Origin: a virus
Virus record (IMG/VR): IMGVR_UViG_3300032893_000005
Span: 90,092-154,091 of that record
Direction: 5' to 3' (one strand)
Length of the DNA: 64,000 nucleotides
Both the position numbers and the translations under genes were made by a program. This document shows positions 4,137 to 60,663 of this stretch, one piece after another (the stretch's first letter is position 1; every line of letters starts with the position of its first letter). Under the pieces are notes generated by a model. The model did no database searches. It saw only the letters and a list, made by a program, of their open reading frames with translations, and was not told the DNA's origin.

Positions 4137-4392
4137 GGTGTACGTAATTGCGTACCTGATCTTACTGGGAACGCTGCTCGGCTTCGTGGCAGGCGGCATC
4201 GTCCAGAAGCACGAGATGAAGCCGATCGTACTGCACGACTTCAACGTGGGCCGGAACCAGGGCTTCGTGATCGGCTGCCAGTTCGCAGCCTCGAGCATGC
4301 GCGGGGTCGATCCAGGTGATCCGTTAGTTGAGATGTACAAGGAGTGGTGCACGAAGAACGCGATGGCCTTCAGCAAGATGGCGGATAAATGA
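4114..4392 (+). CDS. Single-pass membrane protein
   Basis: This 92-aa protein has one clear hydrophobic segment near the N-terminus (residues about 8-27: V-Y-V-I-A-Y-L-I-L-L-G-T-L-L-G-F-V-A-G-G) followed by a polar domain with two cysteines. The likely topology is N-in with the soluble part in the periplasm, or a signal anchor. The start is 4114, with AAGGTGG upstream; the ATG at 4129 is an alternative five codons in. Its neighbours give no functional hint. Confidence 0.75.
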   Translation: MEKNVMAKVYVIAYLILLGTLLGFVAGGIVQKHEMKPIVLHDFNVGRNQGFVIGCQFAASSMRGVDPGDPLVEMYKEWCTKNAMAFSKMADK

Positions 4393-4622
4393 AGATGATC
4401 AACGAGGTCAGGATAAAGGCTCCCATGCGCCAGGTGATCGAGGTTCCAGACGCTCGGTACGACCGCGAGTGGAAGACCTACTTCTTGCCGATCACCGTCA
4501 CGGAAGAGCATCCTAAGGACAGTAATCCCATATCAGAGCTTGTCACGATCTGCCTCAACGACAAGGCAGACGCAGAGAGGCTCATCAGCCTGATCAGGAA
4601 GGCGACGAGGAAGATCAAGTGA
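4389..4622 (+). CDS. Small hypothetical protein
   Basis: This 77-aa protein starts in an ATGA overlap with the membrane-protein gene. It is predicted alpha/beta with a basic C-terminal helix (R-L-I-S-L-I-R-K-A-T-R-K-I-K). No family is recognised. Its stop overlaps the GTG of the next gene as GTGA. Confidence 0.75.
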   Translation: MKMINEVRIKAPMRQVIEVPDARYDREWKTYFLPITVTEEHPKDSNPISELVTICLNDKADAERLISLIRKATRKIK

Positions 4623-4861
4623 GCGAGTACGGCTATCACTACAACGTGATTCAGACCAACGGCGAAGGCTGGCACGTCCTGACCTTGATGGAGGACTACC
4701 AGCAGCATGGGTATGAGTCGTTCGGAACGATGGTCGACGCGAAGACTGGCGTCCTCTGCATACTGATGCGCAAGCCGATGACCGCCGAAGAAGCTAGGCA
4801 GAAGCGCATGAAGTGGGCCATTGACCAAGAGCGTCGTGAGAAGAAGGCTAGGTCAAAGTGA
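4619..4861 (+). CDS. Small hypothetical protein
   Basis: This 80-aa protein starts with GTG in a GTGA overlap and ends in another GTGA overlap. The N-terminal half is beta-like (H-V-L-T-L-M, G-T-M-V-D, G-V-L-C-I-L-M) and the C-terminal third is a highly charged Lys/Arg/Glu helix. It is not recognised. Confidence 0.75.
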   Translation: MSEYGYHYNVIQTNGEGWHVLTLMEDYQQHGYESFGTMVDAKTGVLCILMRKPMTAEEARQKRMKWAIDQERREKKARSK

Positions 4862-9913: not shown

Positions 9914-11029
9914 TTATAGTCCGCAGTCAACTGTCCAGTGAGCGGTATAGAAGTGTCCGGCAGTAAGAACAGCACCGCCCTCTATCGTCACGTAGTTCTC
10001 TCCCCAGTTGAAGTTGGTGGGAGTGATCGACGTATCGCTGGAAGAGTTGTTGTCGTGAACCTTGCCAGCGGTACCAGTAGTGTCCGAGTAGAACTGCACC
10101 AGAGTGTATGTTCCAGGAAGGCGCTTAGGTACCTTGAACCAGGCCTTACCACCGTCACTCATCGTTTGAGTATCGGTAGCGATGTTGCGGTAACATCCAT
10201 TTTCGTTGGCGGTGCCAGGAGCAACTCCTTGCGGATAGCTCTTCTCGTAGTAGCGCTGACACAGCGCAAGCTCTTGCTGGATGCTTCTGCCGTTGCGAGC
10301 AAACCCAGTCGCCGAGAAGCCCAAGGGTCCTTCGACGATCGAGAACTGAGCAATCTGGAAAGTTGCGCTGCTGGTAGCCATCCAGTTCGTGGCAGAAGAA
10401 GCAACTACGTAGCTGCCAGCCTGCCAAGAGTTGAGGGTAGAAGTCGCGTACGTGGTTCCGGCATAACTTCCTATGTCGACGTACAGTGCGTTCGTGTTGT
10501 CGAAGTTCCACGTGCCAACAGTGTCCATCTGGACTGAGATAGAAATAAACTGCCACGTACTGGCTCCGTTGATGGTAAACGTAGTGACGTAGCTTCTGTT
10601 GGTAGACCCATTTCTAAGAGCGAACGAGTAAGTTCCAGTTACGGAAGCTTGAGCCCAGAACCCAAAGGTCACTGTTTTTTGATGGATCTTCTCAAAGTCT
10701 AGCCCTTCCATTCGGTACTGACAAACCTCTACGTAGTCCGAGGCTGCGAAGGATGCTATCCCCGTAACCATCGTTGCCAGTAAGCTGTACGTACTCTGAA
10801 ATCCTGACTGGGCTACGGTAGGTATCGTAGCAGACCTAGCTATCGAGTAGTTCTTAACAGTTGATCCTCCAGAATCGTAGGTGAACATGTCGGCGGCATA
10901 TCCAGAAGTTGTGGTCGCAGTGTTGACCGTCGTGGTGCTACCCTCGACGCGCTGCCAGAAGTCGAAGGCACCGTTGATCGCCAGGTTCCTGATCTCAGAT
11001 GGTGTATGTGCGCCTATGATCTTACTCAT
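9914..11029 (-). CDS. Tail fibre with 'NGAFDFWQR / CQRYYEKSY' architecture
   Basis: This 371-aa protein begins near N-L-A-I-N-G-A-F-D-F-W-Q-R, followed by a beta-sandwich of about 200 residues. A short helix-strand motif, L-A-L-C-Q-R-Y-Y-E-K-S-Y, comes next (about residue 260), then a beta-rich tip of about 100 residues. I recognise this order from many phage fibre and collar proteins, where the first part resembles a carbohydrate-binding module. The adjacent upstream gene (11038-13659) ends with the same architecture, so the two are paralogous at their C-termini. It is likely a receptor-binding subunit. Confidence 0.8.
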   Translation of the reverse strand: MSKIIGAHTPSEIRNLAINGAFDFWQRVEGSTTTVNTATTTSGYAADMFTYDSGGSTVKNYSIARSATIPTVAQSGFQSTYSLLATMVTGIASFAASDYVEVCQYRMEGLDFEKIHQKTVTFGFWAQASVTGTYSFALRNGSTNRSYVTTFTINGASTWQFISISVQMDTVGTWNFDNTNALYVDIGSYAGTTYATSTLNSWQAGSYVVASSATNWMATSSATFQIAQFSIVEGPLGFSATGFARNGRSIQQELALCQRYYEKSYPQGVAPGTANENGCYRNIATDTQTMSDGGKAWFKVPKRLPGTYTLVQFYSDTTGTAGKVHDNNSSSDTSITPTNFNWGENYVTIEGGAVLTAGHFYTAHWTVDCGL

Positions 11030-11037
11030 GTTTCACC

Positions 11038-13659
11038 TTAAATCTCCGCGTCCGCAGTCCAATGGATTTTATACGCAGTTTGCGCCGCTGGCGTGACGGA
11101 AGTACCAATAGTTACACTACCTAGTCCCACTGTCAATATAGATGATGCTATTGAAGCGCTGTTTGTACTAGTTTCCCAGGATGCTCCACCCGAGACAGGA
11201 TTGATACCGGTAACTGTCGGTGAAGCTCTCTTCTCTGCCTTGAAGCCAACTGACACTAATAGACCACCGGTAACATTTGTACCGATTGACCACCAACTTG
11301 CTGTATCTACGACTGTACCTGGAGCTGTTCCAATGTCATAACTCTTCTCGTAGTAGCGCTGACAGAGAGCAACTTCTTCACCAAAGTACCGTCCAGCTCT
11401 GGCAAATGTCATGGCAGTAGCGCCGATGTTGACTTCAGCTTGTTCAACCACGAACCCGTTGTTGAGCGCGTACAAGTTGCCGCTTGATACTCCAGTGATA
11501 CGAACCCTGATGCCTATCACGCCGCTCGCCGTTGGAGTGTTACCGCTGTTCTGGTTGAGCAGAGAAGCGAGCGTGAAGCCTGACGAGTTGACGGTGACAA
11601 GCTGCTCAGTTCCGAAGAACAAGGTCGGCTTGATCTCAGAAGTGGCGTAGGCGAACTGGATACCGACCTGGTTCACGTTGCCGAGAGCCTTGACGTACAT
11701 GCTGGCCGAGATGCTCTGGTTTATGAGGTCGATCGACATCGGGTTCTCTATCACCTGGTAAAGCTCGGTCACGTTCGCTTGCGAAGCTGTCGGGGCGGTC
11801 GTGATCTGAACAGAGCATCCATACTTGGAACCGGGCAAGGTGCCTGTAACTTGTGACATCGTGATGACGCCAGAAGTTCCGAGGCCGTTCTTCACGTACC
11901 ATCGATCGGCTGCGACGTAGGACGAGCTGCCGTTTGCGATCGTAGCCGAAGTCTGACGCTGCCACAGGTCGAAGGCGCCGTTGATCAAGTAGTTCTTGAG
12001 GCCGTTGGTCTGAAGCTGAGTGATAGCGGTCGAGTTCTGACTCGATACGTCAACGACCTGAACACGGTAGACGATCATGAAGTCAAGTGCCAGTGAGCTG
12101 TAATCCTTGTCGAGCTGGATGATGGTCGAGCTGACCTCAGTGTAGTAACCGTCAGAGGTCGGGACAGAACCAGCGACGTAGCGCGGGAGCATCTGACCGT
12201 TGACGTAGACGTCGAGGATGCCGTAAGCGTTTCCTGAGTTCACGCCGATCGGGTACTGAAGACCGCCGGTCAAGGCGATCTGTGTCTTACCACCTACGAC
12301 GGACAAGGTGCAGTTGATGGGAGAAGTCGAGCTGTTAGTTACACCGTAAGCAGACCAGAGGGTAGCGCCTGAGGCAGAGCCCAGAGCCTTCTGCATGAAG
12401 GCTTCGTAGTTGAGCAAGTTGACGAAGCCGGTGCCAGAAGACCTTGCCGAGAAGAAGCGGAGGTAGAGGCTCGTTCCCGAAGTCGGGGCCACGTCGCTCT
12501 GCATCTGGTCGGTCGTGTTCGTAGTGCGAGTCTGGAGGGTCATCCAGTTCGTGTTGTCGGTTGATCCTACGTAAGCGCAGAACGGAGCAACGTCGGGCGT
12601 CCAGAGGTTTGATCCAGAGGCCGCGTTGTCCTCGTAGTCCACCATGATCTCGGAGAACGCAGTAGAGCCGAAGGAGGCAGAGATCGCTGCGGCAGTCGAG
12701 TTCGCGTTGTAGTTGTAGATGTCAACCGTGTGGACGCACTGCGACACGCAGCAAGCCACAGCGCTCGGGTTAGAGGCAAAGGCCGACTCGATCGTGAAGG
12801 GGGTTCCCGCACCACCGTCGGAGTTGATCGATCCGATGACCGTGATCTTCCTGACCTCGCCAGTCACCAAGTTGATGACGACGTCACCAGCAGCGACCGT
12901 GAAGGCAGGTCCTGATCCACCGCTGATGTGCATGGTAACAGAAGTGTTGGCGGTTATCGTGCGCGATGCGTCGTAGTTGATCGTGTACATCTGCTTCGCG
13001 GCGTTGTACGAAGCGTTGGTGAAGCCAGTGTTCGCGTTGACGGCAGATACGGAGTTGGTCGGGCCTTCGGTGAAGGGCTCGATGAACACGGCACGGAACT
13101 GGAGGGTGTCCAGGTCGGAGCCAGAACCACTGGTACCGGAGCCTCCGCCTTGACCAAGGCGAAGCGTCTGACCAGCGTTCTGGGCGAAGCCGTTGCGCCA
13201 GTACAAGCGCTGGGTTCCGTCAGCAGCGTCTACGCGCTTGGCGATCAGGAAGACTTCCTGGTTCGCGTTGACCGCAGCAGACAGCGCAGAGCCGTTGGTG
13301 ACGATCGAGAGCGTTGCGGTTCCAGCCGTGCGGTTTAGGACCGCGACGAGCATGTCGCCGGAGTTCGTGAAGTTCTGGGAAGAAGAACCGAGGCTAATGA
13401 CCTGGGGTACAGCGCCAGAGATCTTCTGGTTGACTGTGATCTTGAGGTTGTCAGTGAACTGGACCTGAGTGCCGGTGAACGTGATGGTACCGCCGTCTGT
13501 CAGGAGGATGTTTCGATCCTCGAACAGCTTGCCCATCTCTCCGTCTATGTTAGAGAGGAGGGTGTCGACGCCGGTGTTCGCCGCGTTGCCGATCATGGAC
13601 GGAGTACTTCTCAGTATACTCTGCCTGATGTCCTGATTCGTTGTTCCTGGTCCTGGCAT
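11038..13659 (-). CDS. Large tail fibre, C-terminal paralogue of the 371-aa fibre
   Basis: This 873-aa protein starts with a 'D-Q-D-I-R-Q-S-I-L-R' helix and a strand-turn region, then beta-rich stretches. A module with Y-V-N-G-Q-M-L-P-R lies around residue 485. The C-terminal 330 residues repeat the neighbour's architecture: L-I-N-G-A-F-D-L-W-Q-R near 540 and A-L-C-Q-R-Y-Y-E-K-S-Y near 760. It is probably a multi-domain side fibre whose tip shares ancestry with the next gene's product. It is separated from that gene by 8 nt and is co-transcribed. Confidence 0.8.
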   Translation of the reverse strand: MPGPGTTNQDIRQSILRSTPSMIGNAANTGVDTLLSNIDGEMGKLFEDRNILLTDGGTITFTGTQVQFTDNLKITVNQKISGAVPQVISLGSSSQNFTNSGDMLVAVLNRTAGTATLSIVTNGSALSAAVNANQEVFLIAKRVDAADGTQRLYWRNGFAQNAGQTLRLGQGGGSGTSGSGSDLDTLQFRAVFIEPFTEGPTNSVSAVNANTGFTNASYNAAKQMYTINYDASRTITANTSVTMHISGGSGPAFTVAAGDVVINLVTGEVRKITVIGSINSDGGAGTPFTIESAFASNPSAVACCVSQCVHTVDIYNYNANSTAAAISASFGSTAFSEIMVDYEDNAASGSNLWTPDVAPFCAYVGSTDNTNWMTLQTRTTNTTDQMQSDVAPTSGTSLYLRFFSARSSGTGFVNLLNYEAFMQKALGSASGATLWSAYGVTNSSTSPINCTLSVVGGKTQIALTGGLQYPIGVNSGNAYGILDVYVNGQMLPRYVAGSVPTSDGYYTEVSSTIIQLDKDYSSLALDFMIVYRVQVVDVSSQNSTAITQLQTNGLKNYLINGAFDLWQRQTSATIANGSSSYVAADRWYVKNGLGTSGVITMSQVTGTLPGSKYGCSVQITTAPTASQANVTELYQVIENPMSIDLINQSISASMYVKALGNVNQVGIQFAYATSEIKPTLFFGTEQLVTVNSSGFTLASLLNQNSGNTPTASGVIGIRVRITGVSSGNLYALNNGFVVEQAEVNIGATAMTFARAGRYFGEEVALCQRYYEKSYDIGTAPGTVVDTASWWSIGTNVTGGLLVSVGFKAEKRASPTVTGINPVSGGASWETSTNSASIASSILTVGLGSVTIGTSVTPAAQTAYKIHWTADAEI

Positions 13660-13669
13660 GTTTTCCTCT

Positions 13670-13972
13670 TTACGGTGACCTGTCGACTCGGAAGTCTACC
13701 AAGTCTCCGACTACTAAGTTGAACGTGAACGTGACTTGCGTCTTGGTGCCTGATCCCACGTAGTTGTAGTCAGCGCTGGGTTCTAGGCGTTGGCCGTTGA
13801 AGTAGACCTGAAGCTCAGCTCCCACGTAAGATCCGCTTGCTGGGAGAGTGACTGCGGTACCCGAAGTGATCGGCGATGCGACCGTGTACCGCTGGTCGTA
13901 GACTGGCACGTAGACGTTAGCCGCCTGGGACCTAGGAAACCCGTTTACTAGGGCTAGAAAGGTCCCTGACAT
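13670..13972 (-). CDS. Stand-alone 'NGQ' fibre module protein
   Basis: This 100-aa protein consists almost entirely of one module: G-T-A-V-T-L-P, then Y-V-G-A-E-L-Q-V-Y-F-N-G-Q-R-L-E, then D-Y-N-Y-V-G-S-G, and a final L-V-V-G-D-L-V-D-F-R-V-D. The same module is embedded in 17106-20192 and 11038-13659, and a weaker copy is seen in 7267-9903. It may be a fibre joint or adaptor. Its ATG overlaps the stop of the preceding fibre gene (TAATG). Confidence 0.75.
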   Translation of the reverse strand: MSGTFLALVNGFPRSQAANVYVPVYDQRYTVASPITSGTAVTLPASGSYVGAELQVYFNGQRLEPSADYNYVGSGTKTQVTFTFNLVVGDLVDFRVDRSP

Positions 13973-16362
13973 TAGTTGACTCCAACAGGCACCGCATCCA
14001 CGTCAACGACGTTCGTAGACTTCACTATGCCGAGGCGAGTGATCGCTTGGCCAGTAGTCGACGGTGCAGTGTTACTCCAAGCACCTGCGGCCTGAAGGAA
14101 GAACGGCTTGCCCTGGTCGTTGGTAGCGAACGCAGTGTCGCTCGAGCCGAGGGTAAGAAGTCCCTTACGAACGACCGTGATGCTGTTACCAGCAGACACG
14201 GAGGTCGGGTTGTTGAACAGACCGATGACGTAGAACTCGTCGTAGGTTGAAGTGTCGATGTCGGCAGCGTACACCCGGCCAGCAGTCTCGCCGTTCTGAA
14301 CGATGGCTCTGCGGATTGCGTACGTCGTATTCGCGCTGAACGATTGACCGGCCACTTCGGTAGTGACCCAGGCGGGAGCGTTCTGAACGGCAGCGGCTGA
14401 ACCGTTACCGCCCGTGATGGTGAGCTGGTCGAAGACGTTGGTGTTGACCTTGGCAGCAGTAACCGCGTTGTTGACGAGGTCAGTCGACTGGATGCTGTTC
14501 GAGAGGTTCAACTTCGAGTACGCGATCGCAGCCGAGGCGTTGATGTCCGCGTTCACGATCGAGTTGCTCAAGCTCAGCTTGCTGTAGGCGATCGCGGCAG
14601 AAGGACTGACGTCGGAGTTGACGATAGAACCGGCAAGGCTTAACTTGCTGTAGGCGATCGCGGCAGAAGGACTGATGTCCGCGTTCACGATGCTGGCAGA
14701 CAGGTTCAACTTGCTGTAGGCGATCGCAGCCGAGGCGCTGACCTGGGTATTCGTGATACCGCCAGCCTTGACCTCGAGGTTGTTGCCGCTGAAGTCGATC
14801 GTGGTGCCGTCGACGTTTACGTTCAGCGTGTTACCGCTGTAGGACAGACCGTTACCGGCCAAGATCTTGGAAGGACCTGAGAAGTCAACCCACGAGAGGG
14901 TAGACGACACGTAGGTGTACGAAGATCCGTAGTGCTGAGAGCCAGGCGCGTTGACGTTGAACGCCCAGTTGTTTGCAGGCGAAGCGAACGTGTAGGCGTA
15001 AGAGCCAGGCGTTGCGTTCGTGACGGTCGCGATCGTGTTGTGGTGACCTGCGAAGCTGCCGCCAAGCTGCGCCGTGAAGGACGAGTACGTGATCGTAGAG
15101 TCGCCCGTGCCGCTGGACTTGGTGATAGTGCCGCTTGCCGGAGGATAACCGTTGCTCGTCGCAACTAGCGTTGTACCGCCAGCGATCGTGCTCTGGACGA
15201 TGAAGGCGTAGCCGTTAGAGTCGAGGTAGATAGCGCCAGCAGTTGCGTTCGCAGCCGTGACCGTGAACGTGAATACTTCGGGAGTGTCGATGGACACACC
15301 GAAGCGGTCGCCGACCTGCATGGCAGTCTGAGTTCCAGAGCCAAGGGGTAAGCCGTTCGAGATGTCGATCCAGTTCGCACCGTCCCACCACACGACGTGA
15401 CCAGCAAAGCCGGACCAAGCGCCCGTAGGCGATGCTCCGATGACGTAGGTCAAGCTGTAGATCGGCGATCCGGGAGGAGCGCTTAGGCTGTCGTCGGTGA
15501 TGTCTGGGTCTCTGACTGGGTTCTGCCACAGGAGGCCTGTGCTCGCAGAGGTCAACTGACCGTAGTTCACCGCGTCGTTCGGGTTCGTACCGTTCGCGAG
15601 GCCAGTGATCTTGTTGCTGTTCAGGTTGAAGTTGCCGGTAGCGGGTACTGTGCCGTCGGCCAAGAACAAGTTGCCTGACAAGATACCAGAAGCCTGGACG
15701 TAGCCAGAAGCACTCTGGATCAAGACGTCGTTGGTTGAACCACCGAGGGTAGCCAACTTCGTGTAGGCGATGGCCGCAGAGGGAGATACGTCAGAGTTGA
15801 CGATCGAGCCTGAGAGGTTCAGCTTGCTGTAGGCGATTGCCGCGCCAGCCGCGATGTTCGAGTTCGTCAGGTTCCCGAGGTCGACGTCGGCGTCGGGCAT
15901 CGTGATCGTGCGAGTGTGGCCGGTCGTGATGCCAGCAGCACTGAACGCGATCTTCTTGGTCGTGTCAGACACGTTCTCGATTCGGAAGACCGAGTCGAGG
16001 GGAGTAAGGATCGCGCCTAGGGCAGAGTCGATGCCAAGCAAAGCACCTTTGACGGTCGCAGCAGTAGGTGTGAAGTTCAGGTAGTTGTCGTAGTCACCGA
16101 TAAGGCGTGAGCCGTCGGTACCGTTGGTCGCAGCAGACAGGGAGCTGGTGCGGGTATAGACCGTGTCGTGCGTGTGGTAGGACGTGTTGACGTCGGTACC
16201 GTTCTGGAGGCTGACAAGGCGGTCTAATATAGTCTTGGTGAGTTCAGTGTTGGATACACCACCGCCTACCTTGACGGACAGCGTCACAAGCGTGTTGGCG
16301 CTTATGTCTATGCCCCTTGTTGCGGCTCCTACTAACCTGGCTAGTACGCTAATGTCTGACAT
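13972..16362 (-). CDS. Long tail fibre with SKL repeats
   Basis: This 796-aa fibre is the first gene after the motif copy at 16418. The N-terminal region has a Y-H-T-H-D metal-site-like motif near residue 62. Two blocks of a roughly 22-residue repeat (S-P-S-A-A-I-A-Y-S-K-L-N-L-S and variants, separated by S-I-V-N-S-D-V) occur at residues about 165-208 and 540-625. Such repeats are typical of trimeric fibre shafts. In between, around residues 365-435, is a copy of the 'T-A-G-A-x-Y ... S-G-T-I-T-K' module shared with the glycine-rich adhesin at 44763-46439. The C-terminal domain (about 660-796) is a likely tip. Confidence 0.8.
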   Translation of the reverse strand: MSDISVLARLVGAATRGIDISANTLVTLSVKVGGGVSNTELTKTILDRLVSLQNGTDVNTSYHTHDTVYTRTSSLSAATNGTDGSRLIGDYDNYLNFTPTAATVKGALLGIDSALGAILTPLDSVFRIENVSDTTKKIAFSAAGITTGHTRTITMPDADVDLGNLTNSNIAAGAAIAYSKLNLSGSIVNSDVSPSAAIAYTKLATLGGSTNDVLIQSASGYVQASGILSGNLFLADGTVPATGNFNLNSNKITGLANGTNPNDAVNYGQLTSASTGLLWQNPVRDPDITDDSLSAPPGSPIYSLTYVIGASPTGAWSGFAGHVVWWDGANWIDISNGLPLGSGTQTAMQVGDRFGVSIDTPEVFTFTVTAANATAGAIYLDSNGYAFIVQSTIAGGTTLVATSNGYPPASGTITKSSGTGDSTITYSSFTAQLGGSFAGHHNTIATVTNATPGSYAYTFASPANNWAFNVNAPGSQHYGSSYTYVSSTLSWVDFSGPSKILAGNGLSYSGNTLNVNVDGTTIDFSGNNLEVKAGGITNTQVSASAAIAYSKLNLSASIVNADISPSAAIAYSKLSLAGSIVNSDVSPSAAIAYSKLSLSNSIVNADINASAAIAYSKLNLSNSIQSTDLVNNAVTAAKVNTNVFDQLTITGGNGSAAAVQNAPAWVTTEVAGQSFSANTTYAIRRAIVQNGETAGRVYAADIDTSTYDEFYVIGLFNNPTSVSAGNSITVVRKGLLTLGSSDTAFATNDQGKPFFLQAAGAWSNTAPSTTGQAITRLGIVKSTNVVDVDAVPVGVN
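14491..14745 (-). repeat. Coding tandem repeat (SKL, about 66 nt, four copies)
   Basis: Four near-identical units of about 66 nt encode the 22-residue S-K-L repeat of the long fibre. Adjacent units differ by a few bases, including the shared core TGTAGGCGATCGC in three of them. The DNA-level similarity suggests recent unit duplication or gene conversion, which would allow fibre-shaft length to vary. Confidence 0.75.
15738..15866 (-). repeat. Second block of SKL coding repeats (two copies)
   Basis: Two further copies of the same 66-nt unit lie in the N-terminal third of the long fibre gene, about 1 kb away from the main block in the DNA. The copies retain the same residue frame (A-A-I-A-Y-S/T-K-L). 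The two blocks could recombine and delete the intervening domain. Confidence 0.7.
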
Positions 16363-16396
16363 CTTCTCGTTTTCCTACTTAAAAAATGATGGGAAG

Positions 16397-16660
16397 TTAG
16401 GCGGGTGTTACCTTCTGATTAAGATCTTGACCTAACTTACTGTCTTTGTTATCTTTTTCACTATCCTCAACCTCGCAGAAGTCGACGTTGAAGTTCGCGA
16501 GCTTCCAGCCGTAGGGCTTCAGGACCTTGTTGGCCTCAGCGTGGGCCTTCTTCAGGATGGCGTTCACCTGGTTACCCAGTTCTTCAGCCATCCTCATGCG
16601 CTCGCTGACTCCCATGCTTGCTAGTGGACGGGCGTTTTCTTTTACTAAGCGCTTACTCAT
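16397..16660 (-). CDS. Small helical protein
   Basis: This 87-aa protein has a long N-terminal helix (residues about 15-50, M-A-E-E-L-G-N-Q-V-N-A-I-L-K-K) followed by V-L-K-P-Y-G-W-K-L and an acidic tail. The arrangement suggests a small chaperone or connector, but no family is recognised. The C-terminal L-G-Q-D-L-N is encoded by a copy of the repeated AGATCTTAAT motif, so the last codons double as a probable promoter for the next fibre unit. Confidence 0.7.
   Translation of the reverse strand: MSKRLVKENARPLASMGVSERMRMAEELGNQVNAILKKAHAEANKVLKPYGWKLANFNVDFCEVEDSEKDNKDSKLGQDLNQKVTPA
16418..16437 (-). promoter_or_regulatory. Late-promoter-like motif, copy 1
   Basis: On the minus strand this reads GTTAGGTCAAGATCTTAATC and ends 56 nt before the start of the SKL fibre gene (16362). 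It matches the seven-copy consensus GTTAnnnnnAGATCTTAAT. It lies within the last codons of the 16397-16660 gene. It would begin the transcription unit covering the fibre cluster down to 6007. Confidence 0.6.
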
Positions 16661-21222: not shown

Positions 21223-21663
21223 TCATGCTTTGGCGTCCGAGACCTCATTATAGTAGAAGAGACCTTGGAAGCTCGCGCTGAAGGTGTTCACGCCTTTGAC
21301 GCTAGTTGTTATACTGTCCTTGTCGAAGATCACGCCGACCACGCGGGCGTAGGTCGTGTTGAGCTTGCGGTCGATCAGCTCGATCACGCAGTACTTCTGG
21401 TTGAGGAGGTCTTGGAGAGTCGAGGCATTGATGATGCCGAAGCCTGCGGGTCCACCGATGTCGCGGACCTGAAAGCCAGCCATGGTGCCGGTGACGGAGT
21501 AGGGGCCAGTCGTCGCGATCTCCTGAGGAGGAAGAACGTCGATGCCGTAGATGGCCTTGACACCCTGAGAGCGGTTGATGGTGACGTTGGTCGCAAAGCC
21601 CACCACCTTGCCGTTGACCACGACCTTTGATGATGCGCCTGTGACTAAAGATTGCTGTGACAT
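21223..21663 (-). CDS. Second tail-tube-like protein (baseplate-proximal paralogue)
   Basis: This 146-aa protein is paralogous to the tube protein at 57371-57838. Shared features in order are V-V-N-G-K-V-V-G near residue 16, a P-x-E-I-A-T strand, G-x-x-V-x-D-I (about 68-72), L-Q-D-L-L-N (about 84-89), a D-R-K/Q strand, V-x-G-V and a C-terminal F-S-A-S-F-x-G-L. The spacing is preserved. Tube-fold proteins also serve as tube-initiator rings in baseplates (T4 gp48/gp54 are tube-like), and this gene is near the baseplate block rather than beside the sheath. It is preceded by an unusual hairpin-rich intergenic region. Confidence 0.7.
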   Translation of the reverse strand: MSQQSLVTGASSKVVVNGKVVGFATNVTINRSQGVKAIYGIDVLPPQEIATTGPYSVTGTMAGFQVRDIGGPAGFGIINASTLQDLLNQKYCVIELIDRKLNTTYARVVGVIFDKDSITTSVKGVNTFSASFQGLFYYNEVSDAKA

Positions 21664-50537: not shown

Positions 50538-51269
50538 GTGAGTAAGACCGAAGAACCCCAGACCCCAGTACTCGTACCCGAACACACCGAGTTCGAGACG
50601 AAGTACCGCGTTGATGCCGCGACTCTGACCGAGTTCAAGCGCATCATGGATGGGCTGCCTAACCTCAAGAAGTTCATCTACGTCGAGGGACCTGATCACT
50701 ACTACACGAACGAGCACATCACCAAGGCGTTCCAAGCGTTCGCCGACGGACTACCTGCTGCCCACCGCGACAAGCTCCATGCCCTGATCAACTCCACGAT
50801 CGGCGAGTTCCCACCGTTCATGCGCTTCCGTCGCCCGTCGCACGGCCTGGACGAGAACCGTCAGGAGCTGACGACCAAGTACCGCCAGGACGGGTCCAAG
50901 AACAACATCCAGCGCGAGGAGAAGAACCTTCGAGTCGACAAGACCGAGGAGAAGACCATCAAGGCCTTCGTTGCAGACGTTGGCTATAAGCCGAACTTCT
51001 CAGTGTGGAAGACTTGCCACATCTACAACCTCGACGACGCTACCCTCGTGTTCTACTCGGTGTACGATACCACCGACGGGCAGCAATCCCCTAAGGTAGA
51101 TAACTTCTTCGAGATCGAGGTCGACGAGGAGACGGTGTCCAAGATGACCGAGGCTGAAGCTTGGGGCATCATCACGAAGTACGAGAGCATCTTCGCTCAC
51201 CTTGGCATCACGGCTCAGAAGCGGCTTCGTAAGTCCATGTTCGACATGTACAAGCGTGAAGTGAAGTAG
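50538..51269 (+). CDS. CYTH-fold (triphosphate-tunnel metalloenzyme-like) protein
   Basis: This 243-aa protein has the E-x-E-x-K signature of CYTH proteins near its N-terminus: E18-F-E20-T-K22-Y-R. Later strands carry charged residues in alternation, as the tunnel requires: R-F-R-R, E-L-T-T-K-Y-R, Q-R-E-E-K-N-L-R-V and F-F-E-I-E-V-D-E-E. CYTH members act on nucleoside or inorganic triphosphates, thiamine triphosphate or cAMP (adenylate cyclase class IV). A phage homologue in an operon with MazG and a kinase suggests nucleotide or signal-molecule turnover. Fold confidence is moderate, and the substrate is unknown. Confidence 0.65.
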   Translation: MSKTEEPQTPVLVPEHTEFETKYRVDAATLTEFKRIMDGLPNLKKFIYVEGPDHYYTNEHITKAFQAFADGLPAAHRDKLHALINSTIGEFPPFMRFRRPSHGLDENRQELTTKYRQDGSKNNIQREEKNLRVDKTEEKTIKAFVADVGYKPNFSVWKTCHIYNLDDATLVFYSVYDTTDGQQSPKVDNFFEIEVDEETVSKMTEAEAWGIITKYESIFAHLGITAQKRLRKSMFDMYKREVK

Positions 51270-52013: not shown

Positions 52014-52979
52014 ATGAGTGCAGATGTAGAAAACATGTTCAGCGTCAAGGAAGTTCCTTGGCACAAGCTCGGAAGCGTCATACAGAATGCTCCGTCGATC
52101 GAAGAGGGCATCAAGCTCGCTGGCCTTAACTGGAAAGTCGCAATGGAGACCACGCACCGTCCTGACGGTACACTCCGCGCTTCCAAGAGCGTGATCCGCC
52201 TCTCGGACAACAAGGTCTTGGGCGAAGTTGGTCCCAAGTATCATCCGCTTCAAAACGAGAAGGCCTTCGCCTTCTTCGAACCCTTCATCAAGTCTGGCGA
52301 AGTCTCCCTTGAGACCGCTGGCTCACTCGATGGTGGTCGCAAGATCTGGGTCCTTGCCCAGCTCAACCGCAAGCCCCTGGACATCGGCGGCGGTGACGAA
52401 GTTCGCAAGATGCTCCTCCTCACAAACCGTCACGACGGCGTCGCCAGCGCGATGGTCGGCTTCACTCCGATCCGCGTCGTGTGCGCTAACACCTTGGCCG
52501 CTGCGATCAGCGCCACTGACTCAGCTCTCCTCCGCGTTCGCCACACCGCTGGCATCGAGACCGGCTTGGACAAGATCCAGGAGATGGTCAACACTGCCAA
52601 CCAGCAGTTCGAGGCCACTGGCGAGATGTACAAGGCGATGGCTCGCTACGGCGTGTCGACCGCTGACGTCAAGAAGTACGTCAAGCTGGTGTTCTACCCG
52701 AACATCTCTGACACCGAGATAACCGAGCGTCAGCAGACTCGCTTGACCATGCTGACCGAGAACATCACCAAGCTGTTCGAGACAGGCTTCGGCGCTGACT
52801 TGAAGAGCGCGAACGGCACCATGTGGGGCTTGTACAACGGCATGACGCAGTATCTCAGCCACGAAGCCAAGGACGACAGCGACAAGCGCTTCGACAGCCT
52901 GTGGTTTGGCACCAACAAGAACGTGAACGCTCACGCAATGTCGGTAGCGGTCAAGATGGCCGCTGGAGGTGCAGTATGA
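52014..52979 (+). CDS. DUF932 / TIGR03299-type phage protein
   Basis: This 321-aa protein matches the phage/plasmid-like DUF932 (TIGR03299) pattern, with W-H-K-L-G near residue 18, V-G-x-K-Y-x-P-L-Q-N-E (about 75-85), G-G-R-K-I-W-V-L-A-Q-L, T-P-I-R-V-V-C-A-N-T-L (about 150-160), and a C-terminal region near W-G-L-Y-N-G-M-T-Q-Y. Members are widespread in phages, plasmids and integrative elements; their biochemical role is not established to my knowledge. It has its own sigma70-like promoter and a strong AGGAGGG, so it is likely abundant early. The next gene begins in an ATGA overlap. Confidence 0.85.
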   Translation: MSADVENMFSVKEVPWHKLGSVIQNAPSIEEGIKLAGLNWKVAMETTHRPDGTLRASKSVIRLSDNKVLGEVGPKYHPLQNEKAFAFFEPFIKSGEVSLETAGSLDGGRKIWVLAQLNRKPLDIGGGDEVRKMLLLTNRHDGVASAMVGFTPIRVVCANTLAAAISATDSALLRVRHTAGIETGLDKIQEMVNTANQQFEATGEMYKAMARYGVSTADVKKYVKLVFYPNISDTEITERQQTRLTMLTENITKLFETGFGADLKSANGTMWGLYNGMTQYLSHEAKDDSDKRFDSLWFGTNKNVNAHAMSVAVKMAAGGAV

Positions 52980-53739: not shown

Positions 53740-53936
53740 CCGACGCAGCACTCGCCAACCTCGAGTATAAAGAGCGCGTCAAGAAAGCCGTCGCTGGCAT
53801 GAGGGAGATCACCGTCAAGAATCCTGACGATCGCTTCCGTAAGATCACCGAACTGTTCTTGGTTCCGGCGTACAAGGACAACAAGGTCTTCTACGTCGAC
53901 CTATTCAACGCTGCGTTTGACCTGGTGTATGGCTAA
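53736..53936 (+). CDS. Small hypothetical protein
   Basis: This 66-aa protein starts with GTG in a GTGA overlap. It is helical (Y-K-E-R-V-K-K-A-V-A) followed by strands (V-F-Y-V-D-L-F). Its stop overlaps the start of the next membrane protein by 8 nt. The family is not known. Confidence 0.7.
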   Translation: MTDAALANLEYKERVKKAVAGMREITVKNPDDRFRKITELFLVPAYKDNKVFYVDLFNAAFDLVYG

Positions 53937-54210
53937 GGAAGCTCTCTTCTTCCAGGTGGAAGATCAAGTCGGGGTTTTCCTTGTCAACCACGGAGTAATC
54001 GCCGTTGGACTCTTGGTCTTAGCGTTCTTTAGCTACCAGTTCTACTTCGAGTTCTACAAGGTCAAGCGATCATCCGACGAGTACGATGCCGCGCTGTTTG
54101 AGAAGTACCTTGACTTGACGCGTCTACGTCTGCTACGATCCAGGCAGTTCACAGGAGGGAAACAAAGTGACAGAGTTCAAGAAGTACAAGAATCGAAAGA
54201 TCTACAATAA
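53929..54210 (+). CDS. Single-pass membrane protein
   Basis: This protein of about 93 aa starts at the ATG at 53929, overlapping the preceding stop; an in-frame ATG at 53917 is an alternative. It has one transmembrane segment (residues about 22-40, V-I-A-V-G-L-L-V-L-A-F-F) and a charged cytoplasmic or periplasmic tail (R-L-R-L-L-R-S-R-Q). Its 3' end overlaps the PhaR-type gene by 44 nt and contains a likely sigma70 promoter for it. The function is unknown. Confidence 0.65.
   Translation: MAKEALFFQVEDQVGVFLVNHGVIAVGLLVLAFFSYQFYFEFYKVKRSSDEYDAALFEKYLDLTRLRLLRSRQFTGGKQSDRVQEVQESKDLQ
54110..54139 (+). promoter_or_regulatory. Sigma70-like promoter of the PhaR-type gene
   Basis: TTGACT lies at 54110-54115 and TACGAT at 54134-54139, with an 18-nt spacer, inside the 3' end of the upstream gene. 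The start codon of the PhaR-type gene is 27 nt downstream after AGGAGGG. The same -35 to start geometry is seen at 50163. Confidence 0.5.
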
Positions 54211-54604
54211 GAACACGAGCAAGTACGCTACGCTCAGCGAAGTGTACTACGCATCGCTCGGCGGGCCGGTCTCCGTGACTGACGCGACCACTGGCGGAGA
54301 CATCACCGATGACACCGTCATCCGTGGCGCCCTCGAGATCTTCAGCGGTCAAACCTTGAAGGTTCTTGCTGACGAAGCGATCGCCATCGGTCGGAAGTAC
54401 TCCGTGCAGCCTGAAGAGCGAAAGCTCGAGCTGACCGAGACGGCGCAGCGTGCCATGAGTCTTGGCAGTTTTCCTCAAGAATTGAAGACCAAACTCGCAG
54501 GCCGTGGCATCGACGTCTCGAAAGAAACGCCATTCACGCCTAGTGAATTGGAAACAGTAAAAGAAGAAGTCCAAGATCTATTCTCCGGGAAAGGAGCCCA
54601 GTAA
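54167..54604 (+). CDS. PhaR N-terminal-type DNA-binding protein
   Basis: This 145-aa protein has a GTG start with AGGAGGG upstream. Residues 3-58 (F-K-K-Y-K-N-R-K-I-Y-N, T-S-K-Y-A-T-L-S-E-V, T-G-G-D-I-T-D-D) closely match the N-terminal domain of polyhydroxyalkanoate-synthesis regulators (PHB_acc_N): K-K-Y-x-N-R-x-L-Y-x-T-x-x-S-x-Y, T-L, and T-G-x-D-I-T. In bacteria this domain binds DNA and represses PHA-granule (phasin) genes. The C-terminal half is a different helical domain. A phage copy may alter host storage metabolism or act as a phage repressor. The domain identity is strong; the function is inference. Confidence 0.8.
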   Translation: MTEFKKYKNRKIYNKNTSKYATLSEVYYASLGGPVSVTDATTGGDITDDTVIRGALEIFSGQTLKVLADEAIAIGRKYSVQPEERKLELTETAQRAMSLGSFPQELKTKLAGRGIDVSKETPFTPSELETVKEEVQDLFSGKGAQ

Positions 54605-55209
54605 TGAACCCGAAGACGTACATCGAGAACGTGCTCGTTACCGAAGCCCGCGACATGAAGCCGCTCAAGAAGCGCTTCTCAGACCTCGCGAACATCCGCC
54701 TGCTCCACGGTGCCATCGGCATCATATCGGAGCTTGCCGAGATCCAGGAAGCTGCCGACGCTGACCACGTCGATCGCACGAACCTCATGGAAGAAGCGGG
54801 AGACCTCTTCTGGTACATGGGCATCATGGCTCACCAGCTCAACGTGGTCGATGAAGTGTTCATCAACAACGACATGATGGCCATCCGCACGGCACGCCCG
54901 ACGGACGCCAAGGCTCTGCTTCAGCAGAACATCAACTACATGGTGAAGAACGCTGGCTACATGGTCGATACCCTGAAGAAGACCATCATGTACGACAAGC
55001 CGCTCGACGCCAACCTGATGAAGGGTTACCTGCGCGGCATGGACTACAACATCAACCAGGCTCTCCGCATCTACGGGCTCACTTCACAGGATGCCCGCCA
55101 GTCGAACATCAACAAGCTCAAGGAGCGCTACAGTGAGAAGTTCTCTGAAGCTGCTGCCTTGAACCGGAACCTCGCCAAAGAACGTCAAGCCTTAGAAACA
55201 AAGGGGTAA
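54604..55209 (+). CDS. MazG-family nucleotide pyrophosphohydrolase
   Basis: This 201-aa protein has the all-alpha NTP-pyrophosphatase signature. E43-L-A-E46 (ExxE) is followed 17 residues later by E64-A-G-D67 (ExxD) within L-M-E-E-A-G-D-L-F-W-Y, and the C-terminal part ends K-L-K-E-R-Y-S-E-K-F-S-E-A-A-A-L-N-R. The acidic residues bind Mg2+ for cleaving nucleoside triphosphates to monophosphate and pyrophosphate. Phage MazG proteins are thought to modulate nucleotide or (p)ppGpp pools. It starts by overlapping the PhaR-type gene (TAATG) and precedes the dNMP kinase by 3 nt. Confidence 0.85.
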   Translation: MNPKTYIENVLVTEARDMKPLKKRFSDLANIRLLHGAIGIISELAEIQEAADADHVDRTNLMEEAGDLFWYMGIMAHQLNVVDEVFINNDMMAIRTARPTDAKALLQQNINYMVKNAGYMVDTLKKTIMYDKPLDANLMKGYLRGMDYNINQALRIYGLTSQDARQSNINKLKERYSEKFSEAAALNRNLAKERQALETKG

Positions 55210-55212
55210 CAG

Positions 55213-55869
55213 ATGGTCATCATCGTATCGGGAAAACAAGGTAGCGGGAAGACAACGACGACCGAGAGGCTCGTCGAGCACTACGATGGTCACCACATCA
55301 AGTTCGCCGATCCGCTCTACTCGGTTCACGAAGCCATGTGGGACGTGTTAGAGGGTTACGGTGTTCCTCGCGAGAAGAAGTCTGGCGACTTCCTCCAGTA
55401 CCTCGGCACTGAGTTTGGTCGCAAGCGTGACGCAAACATGTGGGTCAACATCGCCAAGTACCGCATCAAGCAGATCTTGGAGCAAGATCCTCACGCAGTG
55501 ATAGTCGTCGACGACTGCCGGTTCGAGAACGAGTTCTCGGCGCTGGACGAGTTCAACCCGATCAAGGTTCGCCTCGAGTGCGACCGCGACGTCCGCAAGG
55601 GCAGGGCAGACGCATGGCGCGACAACGAGTTCCACACTTCCGAGACGGCACTCGATGCCATCTCTGCCGACGGCCAGTTCGACCTGTACTTCGACACCGA
55701 GGAGCAAGACATCGACACCGTCGTTGCCTCGATCCAAGCTGCCGTCCAGGACATCGAGACGTTCGGCGACATGCAGCGCTCGCCTACGACCTTCACTCAC
55801 TTGACCAACAAGTACTTCGACAAGGGATTCAAGAAGCTCGAAGACGGTCGGAACGTGGGTACTTGGTGA
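55213..55869 (+). CDS. Deoxynucleoside-monophosphate kinase-like P-loop protein
   Basis: This 218-aa protein has a Walker A at residues 7-14 (G-K-Q-G-S-G-K-T) and a second acidic site, V-V-D-D-C-R-F at about 98-104. Its layout resembles T4 gp1-like dNMP kinases, including F-A-D-P-L, where the D-P pair contacts the substrate, and R-F-E-N-E-F. It would phosphorylate dNMPs to dNDPs with ATP in the cytoplasm, feeding phage DNA synthesis. Next to MazG it forms a nucleotide-pool cassette. The substrate specificity is not evident from the sequence. Confidence 0.8.
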   Translation: MVIIVSGKQGSGKTTTTERLVEHYDGHHIKFADPLYSVHEAMWDVLEGYGVPREKKSGDFLQYLGTEFGRKRDANMWVNIAKYRIKQILEQDPHAVIVVDDCRFENEFSALDEFNPIKVRLECDRDVRKGRADAWRDNEFHTSETALDAISADGQFDLYFDTEEQDIDTVVASIQAAVQDIETFGDMQRSPTTFTHLTNKYFDKGFKKLEDGRNVGTW

Positions 55870-57370: not shown

Positions 57371-57838
57371 TTAGGTTCCCGAGAGAAGGTCAGAAGCGCC
57401 AGCCGACTCACCCTGTGAGCCCGACTCGTCTTCAGCTCTCAAGCCGAGGAAGCGTGCAGTGAACGCGCTGATCGATCGAGCAGCAACGTCAGTGTCGTAA
57501 CCTTCCGGGCGTACGCCGAGGACGGTCATGATCTGCTTGTTGGTCTGACGATCAAAGATCGCGATGCTGATGTCTTCGTGGTTCAAGAGGTCTTGTAACT
57601 TCGGGATGTCGGCTGCAACGTGAGCACCGTTGTTGACCACACGGAAGCCAGAAGCCGTCACGCGGATAGCTTCTTGAGCGGTGTACGTCAACTCAGCGGG
57701 CGAGTAGCGACCGAGGATGAAAGCAGGCTGAACATCGTATGCGACGCCCCAGCTACAGTTCGTGAAGATCCCTTGGATCTTCCCGTTGACGATAAGCTGA
57801 GCCCTCGCACCATTTAGAATTTGCTGGGTGGTTCCCAT
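57371..57838 (-). CDS. Tail tube protein
   Basis: This 155-aa protein is encoded directly downstream of the sheath, the usual place for the tube. It has L-I-V-N-G-K-I-Q-G-I-F near residue 15, G-R-Y-S-P-A-E-L-T-Y, then G-F-R-V-V-N-N-G-A-H, L-Q-D-L-L-N-H-E and I-A-I-F-D-R-Q. The C-terminal I-S-A-F-T-A-R-F-L-G-L strand is followed by an acidic tail. It should polymerise into stacked hexameric rings forming the DNA channel inside the sheath. It has a paralogue at 21223-21663. Confidence 0.8.
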   Translation of the reverse strand: MGTTQQILNGARAQLIVNGKIQGIFTNCSWGVAYDVQPAFILGRYSPAELTYTAQEAIRVTASGFRVVNNGAHVAADIPKLQDLLNHEDISIAIFDRQTNKQIMTVLGVRPEGYDTDVAARSISAFTARFLGLRAEDESGSQGESAGASDLLSGT

Positions 57839-57855: not shown

Positions 57856-60663
57856 TTAAGCAGCAGCGCTGGCCTTGATGCCTTCGATCTCGAGCGTGAT
57901 CGGGGCAAAGCGAATCGAAGTGGCTTCGATGACAACTGCGTCAACGAGCAAGACGTCCTCGTCGAGTTCAGCGTTGATGCTGATCCAACCGCCGGGAGCA
58001 CCTTGCTGAGGCGACCTGACGATGAGCTTCTTGTTCAAGAACTCTTCCATCTTCGCCTTGACGAAGGAGATGACGGTCGAGGGTTGAACGTCGGCCACAG
58101 ACTCACCGACGAACGCGTCGCGGATTGCCTGAGCCAAGCTGAGGGCGATGATGTCGGCCACGTAGACAGCTTGCAAGCTGTTGTAGACGAAGTTGTTGTC
58201 GACGCCGTAGGTCGTTTGGTCAGTACGGAACCGGAACGAACCGTCTTCCATCTGACTGACGGGGATCATGCCGGACAAGATGGCCTGTTCGACCAGCGAG
58301 TCAGCCTGATCGTCGAAGCCGACGGGGTTCACGACGCCAGAGATCTGAAGAGCCTTGTTGTAGATGGCCTTGTAGAAGCCAGCGGCTTGCATACCGGCGA
58401 CCTTCGCAGCGCCCATCCAAGGTTGGAAGGTAACGATGGCGCCTTGTGAGTTCAAGTCCTTGATGCTCTGGAAGCACATCGTGCAACGGAAGCTTGCCAG
58501 GATCTCAGCAGCGGACTGCTGGTTCTGGAAGGTATCGAGCTTCGAGACCTGAGCAACGCGGTGACGCTTCACCTTAGGAGTCGACATCGCGATGACGTGG
58601 GCGCGGGCCGCAGCGTTCGCAGCGTCGACTGTGTAAGTAGAAGACTGGTCAGTAAGTCCAGCCGCCGAGTCAAGAGTTGCGTCTTGGCTGACGAGGGGAA
58701 CTACGAAGTTGCAGCGAACGGTCGACAGTGCCGTGATGGACTGAGCCATCTGCAGCGCGGTCGTTCCACCCTTGGCACCGCCAGACAAGAAGTAGGGTCC
58801 TTCGTCGTCGGGGAGACCGGCAGTAGCGATCGGCATGTAAGTGACCTGAATAGAGGAAGCGGCGATGTTGCCGGGTCCAGCGGTCAAGTCCCAGATGTCG
58901 CGCTTGATGAGTCCAGGAGCAGTGCTCGCGACGTCCGAGCAGATGCCGACGTTAGAGACTTGGTCCAAGATCATAGGCGAACGCTGAGCATCCGTGCCAG
59001 ATCCAGGCTGAGCGTAGTAGCCAGCGTTGGAGCTGATCAAGGCGCAGAGGTCAGAGATCGTGTTTACGCTGTTCAAGATGATCGACAGGTTCGTGCCCGA
59101 TCCACCAGTGACGCTGGTGGTGAGCATGAGGTTCGCGCCGCTCATGGCTATGCTCATGGTAGCAGTCGTTCCCAAGTAGCCGACTTCGAGGGCGATGTGA
59201 CCGCCGACGATCGGGCTCTCGTTCACGTTGGTGATCGAGTTTGAGAAGCTGAACTGCTTGGCGAACTCGGAAGCCGAGTCGAGCTGTTGGCCGATCCACG
59301 AAGCTGCGTTGGCAGTTCCGAGGTTCAAGAACAAGGTGTTGATGTTGACGGCACCGGCGTTGTCCAAGATCATCATGGACTTACCAACACCGCGAATCTG
59401 ACGATCCAAGACTTGGACGTCCGAGGTAGCGGCGATCGCGGTCGAGCTGACAGCGACGGGCGAGCCGTTAGACAGGCGAGAAGCCGTGACGTAGGCAGAG
59501 CCAGCGACGTTGTTCACTGCCGAGACTTGGTACCAGCCGACGTTGGCAGAACCAGCACCGGCGTAGGCCGAGCTGGAAGGAATGTGCAACCAGTCACCGA
59601 TCTGCGGATTTGAGGCAAACTTGCCAGTAGCCAGAGCGAAGGTGATGGCCGGACCAGCGACGGAGACGGAAGCGTTGACGCCGACCAGTCCAGTCAGTAC
59701 TTGTCTATCTGTTCCTGACATGTTGTTGATCGATATCGAGCTGTAGTCGACCAGGTCGTTGGCGGGAGTGGCGGAGAGGGCTACGGAGGAGACCGCGACC
59801 GGAGCACCGGCAGTGATCTTCACTGCAGATATGCTGGCCGAAGCCGACGTGTTGCTGACCGCAGTGACGATGTACCAACCGACGTTGGCGTTACCGACAC
59901 CAGCTATGACGGAGCCAGACGGGATGTTCATGGAGTCGCCGATTGCAGGCGAAGCACCGAACACAGCCGGAGCAGTCAAGCTGATGGTTACGTTCTGGCC
60001 AGAAACCGCGACTGCGATCTGGTTTGACGCACTGAGTCCAGACATGATGTTCTGGTTGACGCCGCCGACTGCGTTGAGGTTGTTCAGCGCGGTGATGGCC
60101 TGTGCAAGAGACGAGGGAAGGGTGTTCGCGCTGATCGCGAGTGCCTGCTTGGCTCCGCCGTTTACGCGGATGTCGGCAGAAGCGCCGGAAGCAGACGGAG
60201 CGTACGAGAACTTGCTGGTCGATGGAGCGACTTCGTCGACTGCGGTCGAGATGCTCTCCTTGATGCTGTTACCGGGAGCACCGGCAGCATCGGCGAGGAT
60301 CTTGCCGTGACCGTCGTCAGTCTGCTTCATGGCGTTTAAGCCAAGGTTTGACTTGACAAGGATGAATCTCTGAGGCGAACCTTTAATACGAGACGAGGCA
60401 GAAGCGGCAACGGCGCCGCGATAAGCATCGACCAGGCGGCCCGAACCGTACTTGGCCACAACGCGGTTAATGTCGCCGGGACCGAAAGAATTGCTTGAAA
60501 GACGATCTTCTTGGGACCACTGAGGACCTTGGTCAGCTTCGCCAACGAGAGCTATGACGCCAGTCGTGGCAAGACCTTGCGGATTCGAGATCACCGACGT
60601 GGCGATCGACGAGTCCGGGATAATCAGTGTTGATCCATCGGCTGTAACATAAACTCGAGCCAT
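57856..60663 (-). CDS. Contractile tail sheath protein with large insert
   Basis: This 935-aa protein is longer than most sheaths (T4 gp18 is 659 aa). The N-terminus (G-V-I-A-L-V-G-E-A-D-Q-G-P, then R-F-I-L-V-K-S-N) and C-terminus match the sheath pattern. The C-terminal part includes L-V-E-Q-A-I-L-S-G-M-I, G-V-D-N-N-F-V-Y-N-S-L-Q, and L-D-E-D-V-L-L-V-D-A, with a terminal T-L-E-I-E-G strand. Residues about 205-290 and 305-410 are two related copies of an inserted beta domain (I-G-D-x-x-x-I-P-S, V-G-W-Y-x-V-x-A-V and P-V-A-V-S-S). The insert probably decorates the outer surface. Motif copy 5 lies 28 nt upstream. Confidence 0.9.
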   Translation of the reverse strand: MARVYVTADGSTLIIPDSSIATSVISNPQGLATTGVIALVGEADQGPQWSQEDRLSSNSFGPGDINRVVAKYGSGRLVDAYRGAVAASASSRIKGSPQRFILVKSNLGLNAMKQTDDGHGKILADAAGAPGNSIKESISTAVDEVAPSTSKFSYAPSASGASADIRVNGGAKQALAISANTLPSSLAQAITALNNLNAVGGVNQNIMSGLSASNQIAVAVSGQNVTISLTAPAVFGASPAIGDSMNIPSGSVIAGVGNANVGWYIVTAVSNTSASASISAVKITAGAPVAVSSVALSATPANDLVDYSSISINNMSGTDRQVLTGLVGVNASVSVAGPAITFALATGKFASNPQIGDWLHIPSSSAYAGAGSANVGWYQVSAVNNVAGSAYVTASRLSNGSPVAVSSTAIAATSDVQVLDRQIRGVGKSMMILDNAGAVNINTLFLNLGTANAASWIGQQLDSASEFAKQFSFSNSITNVNESPIVGGHIALEVGYLGTTATMSIAMSGANLMLTTSVTGGSGTNLSIILNSVNTISDLCALISSNAGYYAQPGSGTDAQRSPMILDQVSNVGICSDVASTAPGLIKRDIWDLTAGPGNIAASSIQVTYMPIATAGLPDDEGPYFLSGGAKGGTTALQMAQSITALSTVRCNFVVPLVSQDATLDSAAGLTDQSSTYTVDAANAAARAHVIAMSTPKVKRHRVAQVSKLDTFQNQQSAAEILASFRCTMCFQSIKDLNSQGAIVTFQPWMGAAKVAGMQAAGFYKAIYNKALQISGVVNPVGFDDQADSLVEQAILSGMIPVSQMEDGSFRFRTDQTTYGVDNNFVYNSLQAVYVADIIALSLAQAIRDAFVGESVADVQPSTVISFVKAKMEEFLNKKLIVRSPQQGAPGGWISINAELDEDVLLVDAVVIEATSIRFAPITLEIEGIKASAAA

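Follow-up and report, generated by a model that had tools for sequence, protein, structure and literature searches.

The window, that is the whole stretch of 64,000 nucleotides analyzed here (positions 90,092 to 154,091 of the IMG/VR virus record IMGVR_UViG_3300032893_000005), carries on its plus strand a gene (54167..54604) coding for a protein of 145 amino acids with a PHB_acc_N domain. Its limits, a GTG start and a TAA stop, were read from the sequence, the list of open reading frames and the match to PF07879. A Shine-Dalgarno sequence AGGAGG (54153..54158, +) lies 8 nt 5' of the start codon, and the stop codon shares one base with the next ATG in a TAATG at 54602-54606. This ATG opens the gene of a MazG-like pyrophosphatase (54604..55209, +; PHROG 229, E 5.9e-22; PF03819 at 21.8 bits, slightly below the cut-off of 22), which is followed by a deoxynucleoside monophosphate kinase (dNMP kinase; 55213..55869, +; PHROG 139, E 4.5e-31); MazG and a nucleotide kinase had been named as neighbors in the original prediction, and both are recovered by these profiles. 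Upstream, a small probable membrane protein is encoded by an ORF (53929..54210, +) that is in frame with a listed start at 53917 and shares its last 44 nt with the PHB_acc_N gene; Pfam and PHROG profile searches assigned it to no significant family. The same plus strand cluster harbors a DUF932 protein (52014..52979, +; PF06067, E 3.9e-49) and, near its start, a CYTH-like protein (50538..51269, +), which gave no match in a direct Pfam search and is 26% identical to a CYTH protein (PF01928, E 3.3e-07) encoded at 15867-16463 of the related contig L123. A search for operators or palindromes near the PHB_acc_N operon gave none that was convincing, repeats and promoter signals being no better than chance, and no near relatives sharing the DUF932 or MazG genes were found when searched for.

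The presence of a PhaR-type N-terminal domain, as originally predicted, is well supported. PF07879 matches residues 5-51 of the protein with 41.6 bits (E 1.3e-10), covering most of the model, and across searches the score ranged from 41.6 to 44, against a curated cut-off of 25. A six-frame search of the 154,091-base record identified a single copy (42.8 bits, E 8.9e-12). Because Caulobacter was the sole genome matching among 14 control genomes, the match is specific and chance is no concern. The proposed motif letters K-K-Y-x-N-R-K-I-Y, T-L and T-G-x-D-I-T are correct in the translation, where they read KKYKNRKIY (residues 5-13), TL (22-23) and TGGDIT (42-47), and the conserved K-K-Y-x-N-R, Y, Y and D-x-T residues of PF07879 are all present. 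In an alignment of phage proteins and bacterial PhaRs, N9, Y13, Y20 and T47 are invariant, and K5, K6, Y7, R10 and D45 show at least 90% conservation.

AlphaFold modeled the whole protein (23 sequences) with a pLDDT of about 96 over residues 1-50 and of 58-82 in the helical C-terminus, and the domain alone (25 sequences) with a mean pLDDT of 96.2. The predicted domain (residues 1-60; 54167..54346, +) consists of three strands, a helix, a strand and a helix (E2-6, E12-14, E19-21, H23-32, E35-39, H47-60), and the C-terminal part (residues 61-145; 54347..54601, +) is predicted to be mainly helical (64-77, 82-98, 104-112, 125-140). The two computational checks proposed beforehand thus agree, with a significant PF07879 match and a predicted fold that contains the N-terminal domain. 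In structure and PDB sequence comparisons, the domain had no convincing counterpart among solved structures and matched none of the known DNA-binding folds. Among predicted viral proteins (BFVD), A0A516M636 has 83 residues and matches with E 8e-6 and 34% identity. The domain model (window 54167-54352) also bears a weak fold likeness to tRNA-splicing endonucleases, in their N-terminal domains (Z 4.9 and below), which rank above all other VIA-align matches (best Z 4.9, rmsd 3.1, 60 aligned). This likeness was set aside as too weak; it has no backing at the sequence level, a profile comparison with an archaeal sequence having given nothing.

Judged by its sequence, the product is a PHB_acc_N protein and not PhaR. 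The polyhydroxyalkanoate synthesis repressor PhaR/AniA (TIGR01848), which combines PF07879 and PF05233, shares with it the N-terminal PHB_acc_N domain and the KKYxNR, TL and DIT motifs. In contrast to PhaR, the window protein lacks the granule-binding PF05233, which is absent from the whole 154-kb phage record and was detected in Caulobacter as a control, and it scores 29.7 bits against the NCBIfam PhaR equivalog TIGR01848, far under the cut-off of 109.45. Its C-terminus is unrelated to PhaR, in agreement with the earlier statement that the rest of the protein differs, and no Phasin_2 (PF09361) gene is present in the record. Searches of named phages, IMG/VR (close search), plasmids and the PDB found nothing related to the C-terminal 85 residues; for the full protein, INPHARED, plasmids, IMG/VR (close search) and, by sequence, the PDB likewise gave no relative. 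The protein lies above the curated cut-off of the PF07879 family, yet is phage-encoded and outside the PhaR architecture. In a poorly resolved domain tree with few columns and long branches, most phage members group with no bacterial PhaR, the window protein is placed among the PhaRs of Legionella, at the end of a very long branch, and a single phage clade is not rejected (p-AU 0.66).

Stand-alone PHB_acc_N proteins of 73-141 aa were identified in some ten other phage types of IMG/VR (L006, L100, L012, L102/L115, L112, L116, L117, L118, L143 and L144, the phage assignment of L115-L118 being that of IMG/VR alone), two with tandem copies and two in relatives of the window phage; A0A516M636 adds to this set. 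Homologues in other phages, which the original prediction had suggested looking for, show that the window gene is no one-off, and a tblastn search of about 50,700 named phage genomes with four such queries gave no significant match. Twelve further phage sequences match PF07879 with 29-80 bits. These proteins resemble the window protein in their domain, small size and occurrence in phage or viral records, and differ from it in that they are mostly 73-103 aa long, a longer C-terminal extension being found only in the window protein and in L143, where the two are mutually dissimilar. K-[KR]-Y-x-N-R-K is kept by all phage members except the second copies in L006 and L100, a uniformity of the NRK that is partly a search effect, as later searches demanded this motif or closeness to known members; for the same reason the true number of phage PHB_acc_N proteins is likely higher. 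PHROGs cover them by one weak match only (phrog_33295, E 0.0048, to L012), and a search of a literature collection brought up no phage PHB_acc_N protein. Apparently, they form a recurrent and undescribed group, in which an already known domain is placed in a new context.

The syntenic relatives L006 and L100 each have two tandem PHB_acc_N genes (4308-4776 and 10107-10582, respectively), with KKYxNR lost in the second copy (IRRH.N.KYYD-like), which may represent a divergent partner subunit. The genomic surroundings of the phage genes vary and often include phage genes of early type, with DUF932 among the neighbors in L006, replication genes alongside in L012 and, in L112 (three contigs), a position just downstream of rIIA and rIIB (PHROG E 1.2e-56 and 9e-58). 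The first IMG/VR scans yielded chiefly phaR genes that are truly bacterial and lie at the edges of prophages or contigs, which were set aside; L004, L005, L007-L011, L013 and L015 encode full-length bacterial PhaR, mostly at such edges. Also rejected were L014, which looks like a host PhaR cut short, L016, matched at residues 118-143 only and inside a DNA polymerase, L097 and L101, pattern matches with no PHB_acc_N frame, and DSS3_MAL1 gene 11, with no PF07879 match.

Its structural proteins place the window phage among the myoviruses, as a distant relative of Myxococcus phage Mx1 (OR576727), the closest named phage, with 37.7% identity over the full length of the tail sheath (57856-60663, -) and 51% in the major capsid protein; the capsid also has a distant SPO1-like match. 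This kinship only hints at a host among Myxococcota or their neighbors. No integrase (PF00589) was found in the record, which is possibly incomplete, consistent with the lytic-type setting originally proposed, and no tRNA genes are present. Unlike the window phage, Mx1 has no PF07879 match. A scan based on the sheath recovered 22 related contigs, of which only L144 (89 aa) and L143 (141 aa) have a PF07879 match, in genes with other locations and other C-termini than the window gene. In L123, the equivalent cluster, on the opposite strand after the sheath, keeps the dNMP kinase and CYTH genes, and ribonucleotide-reductase-like genes, assigned by eye, replace those for DUF932, PHB_acc_N and MazG (L123 10654-16936), marking a cassette-swap site. 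Since flanking genes and C-termini differ among carriers and L123 swaps genes of the cluster, the window PHB_acc_N gene is, on this genome comparison, a mobile accessory cassette gene.

Taken together, the window protein is probably a small accessory regulator of the phage that binds DNA through the PHB_acc_N domain of PhaR and has been released from granule sensing, rather than a true carbon-storage regulator. The suggestion of a phage transcription regulator in the original prediction thus remains the best reading, its DNA-binding part being deduced from homologues. The PF07879 score, the conserved residues, the high pLDDT of the domain, its recurrence in the twelve further phage sequences with their retained basic motif and the early-type neighbors support it, as does the finding that a fragment of Ralstonia eutropha PhaR comprising residues 1-106 suffices for binding to the phaP promoter and for repression of lacZ in spite of granules (PMC3079617). 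The acidic pI of the full protein (5.6), the lack of a match to DNA-binding folds and the lack of a convincing operator or palindrome near the operon count against it. Such a regulator would be expressed during infection along with MazG and the dNMP kinase, would contact a promoter with KKYxNRK, the conserved basic strand-loop at its N-terminus, and would be held as an oligomer by the helical C-terminus, replacing the oligomerization and granule part of PhaR. It would then repress or switch transcription of the phage, most likely, or of the host; phage promoters are the likelier targets because in unrelated genomes PHB_acc_N genes are found in the company of early-type phage genes. Lacking a granule-binding domain, it would escape the titration by PHA granules to which PhaR is subject, and would be granule-blind. 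The domain alone may not suffice for DNA binding, since Paracoccus PhaR without residues 73-195 loses it (PMC3079617).

A considerably less likely explanation is that DNA binding was lost and that the protein acts as an oligomerization or protein-binding adaptor on a host protein, for example RNA polymerase or PhaR itself. PhaR binds DNA as a multimer and works as a tetramer (PMC10888616), which makes mixed oligomers conceivable, several phage members have an acidic pI, and the fold resembles no classical DNA-binding fold; however, nearly all phage members retain the basic KKYxNRK stretch.

It is rather unlikely that the protein mimics PhaR, occupying host PhaR operators whatever the granule content and thereby fixing the state of central carbon genes and of those for phasin and PHB depolymerase during infection. 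The window domain is only 32-42% identical to those of bacterial PhaRs, and most phage members stand apart from these in the tree, with the reservation on its resolution given above. The motif CTGCN3GCAG, a PhaR-type site from the literature, is only mildly enriched when one mismatch is allowed (54 in the window, 38.7 +/- 6.4 expected), but the matches are dispersed, mostly within coding sequence and not at the PHB_acc_N operon. In favor of mimicry, a DNA-binding part of PhaR, taken by itself, keeps the phaP promoter repressed when granules are present (PMC3079617), and a PhaR reduced to its DNA-binding domain was proposed earlier as an 'untiterable' switch (PMC12542648), a layout that the window protein has. 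For the reprogramming of host carbon storage put forward in the original prediction we found no positive evidence, neither a granule-binding domain nor a Phasin_2 gene being present in the phage, and control of host carbon-storage genes by the window protein is possible at best. The wider view that diverse phages keep a granule-blind PhaR domain as a host-takeover switch, which during infection would lock the PhaR regulon, and with it carbon storage and central metabolism, in hosts that form PHA, appears improbable. Equally improbable is a degenerate or recently acquired passenger gene of no notable function, as might be thought from its presence in only few larger records of the phage family, its absence from Mx1 and a C-terminus without relatives, given the intact ORF, the strong ribosome site, the overlaps with neighbors, the residues conserved in independent phages and the tandem copies retained in two related phages.

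These data point to a group, so far without a name, of small phage proteins that share the DNA-binding domain of a bacterial storage-granule regulator. If they do bind DNA, they would be phage regulators of a new class, and their fold one for which there is no solved structure. If host PhaR targets are hit, phage infection would be tied to carbon storage, and these proteins would be natural forms of the 'untiterable' PhaR proposed by metabolic engineers (PMC12542648).

Some further features of these phages were observed. Three PHB_acc_N-carrying phage records encode lipoprotein-like putative zinc metalloproteases (HELGHC; L121 21786-22322, L006 8413-8910 and L100 5027-5581), possibly a sign that their hosts belong to one group. 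The window phage seems to have two tail-tube-like paralogues (21223-21663, - and 57371-57838, -), both matching one Mx1 protein encoded beside the tail sheath (28% and 55%, respectively). Finally, its record harbors, outside the window (L106), its own chaperonin Cpn60 (PF00118; 2336-4141) and a DNA polymerase III alpha subunit with a PHP domain (12411-15860), and the PHB_acc_N phage L012 likewise has a Cpn60-like gene, 28% identical.
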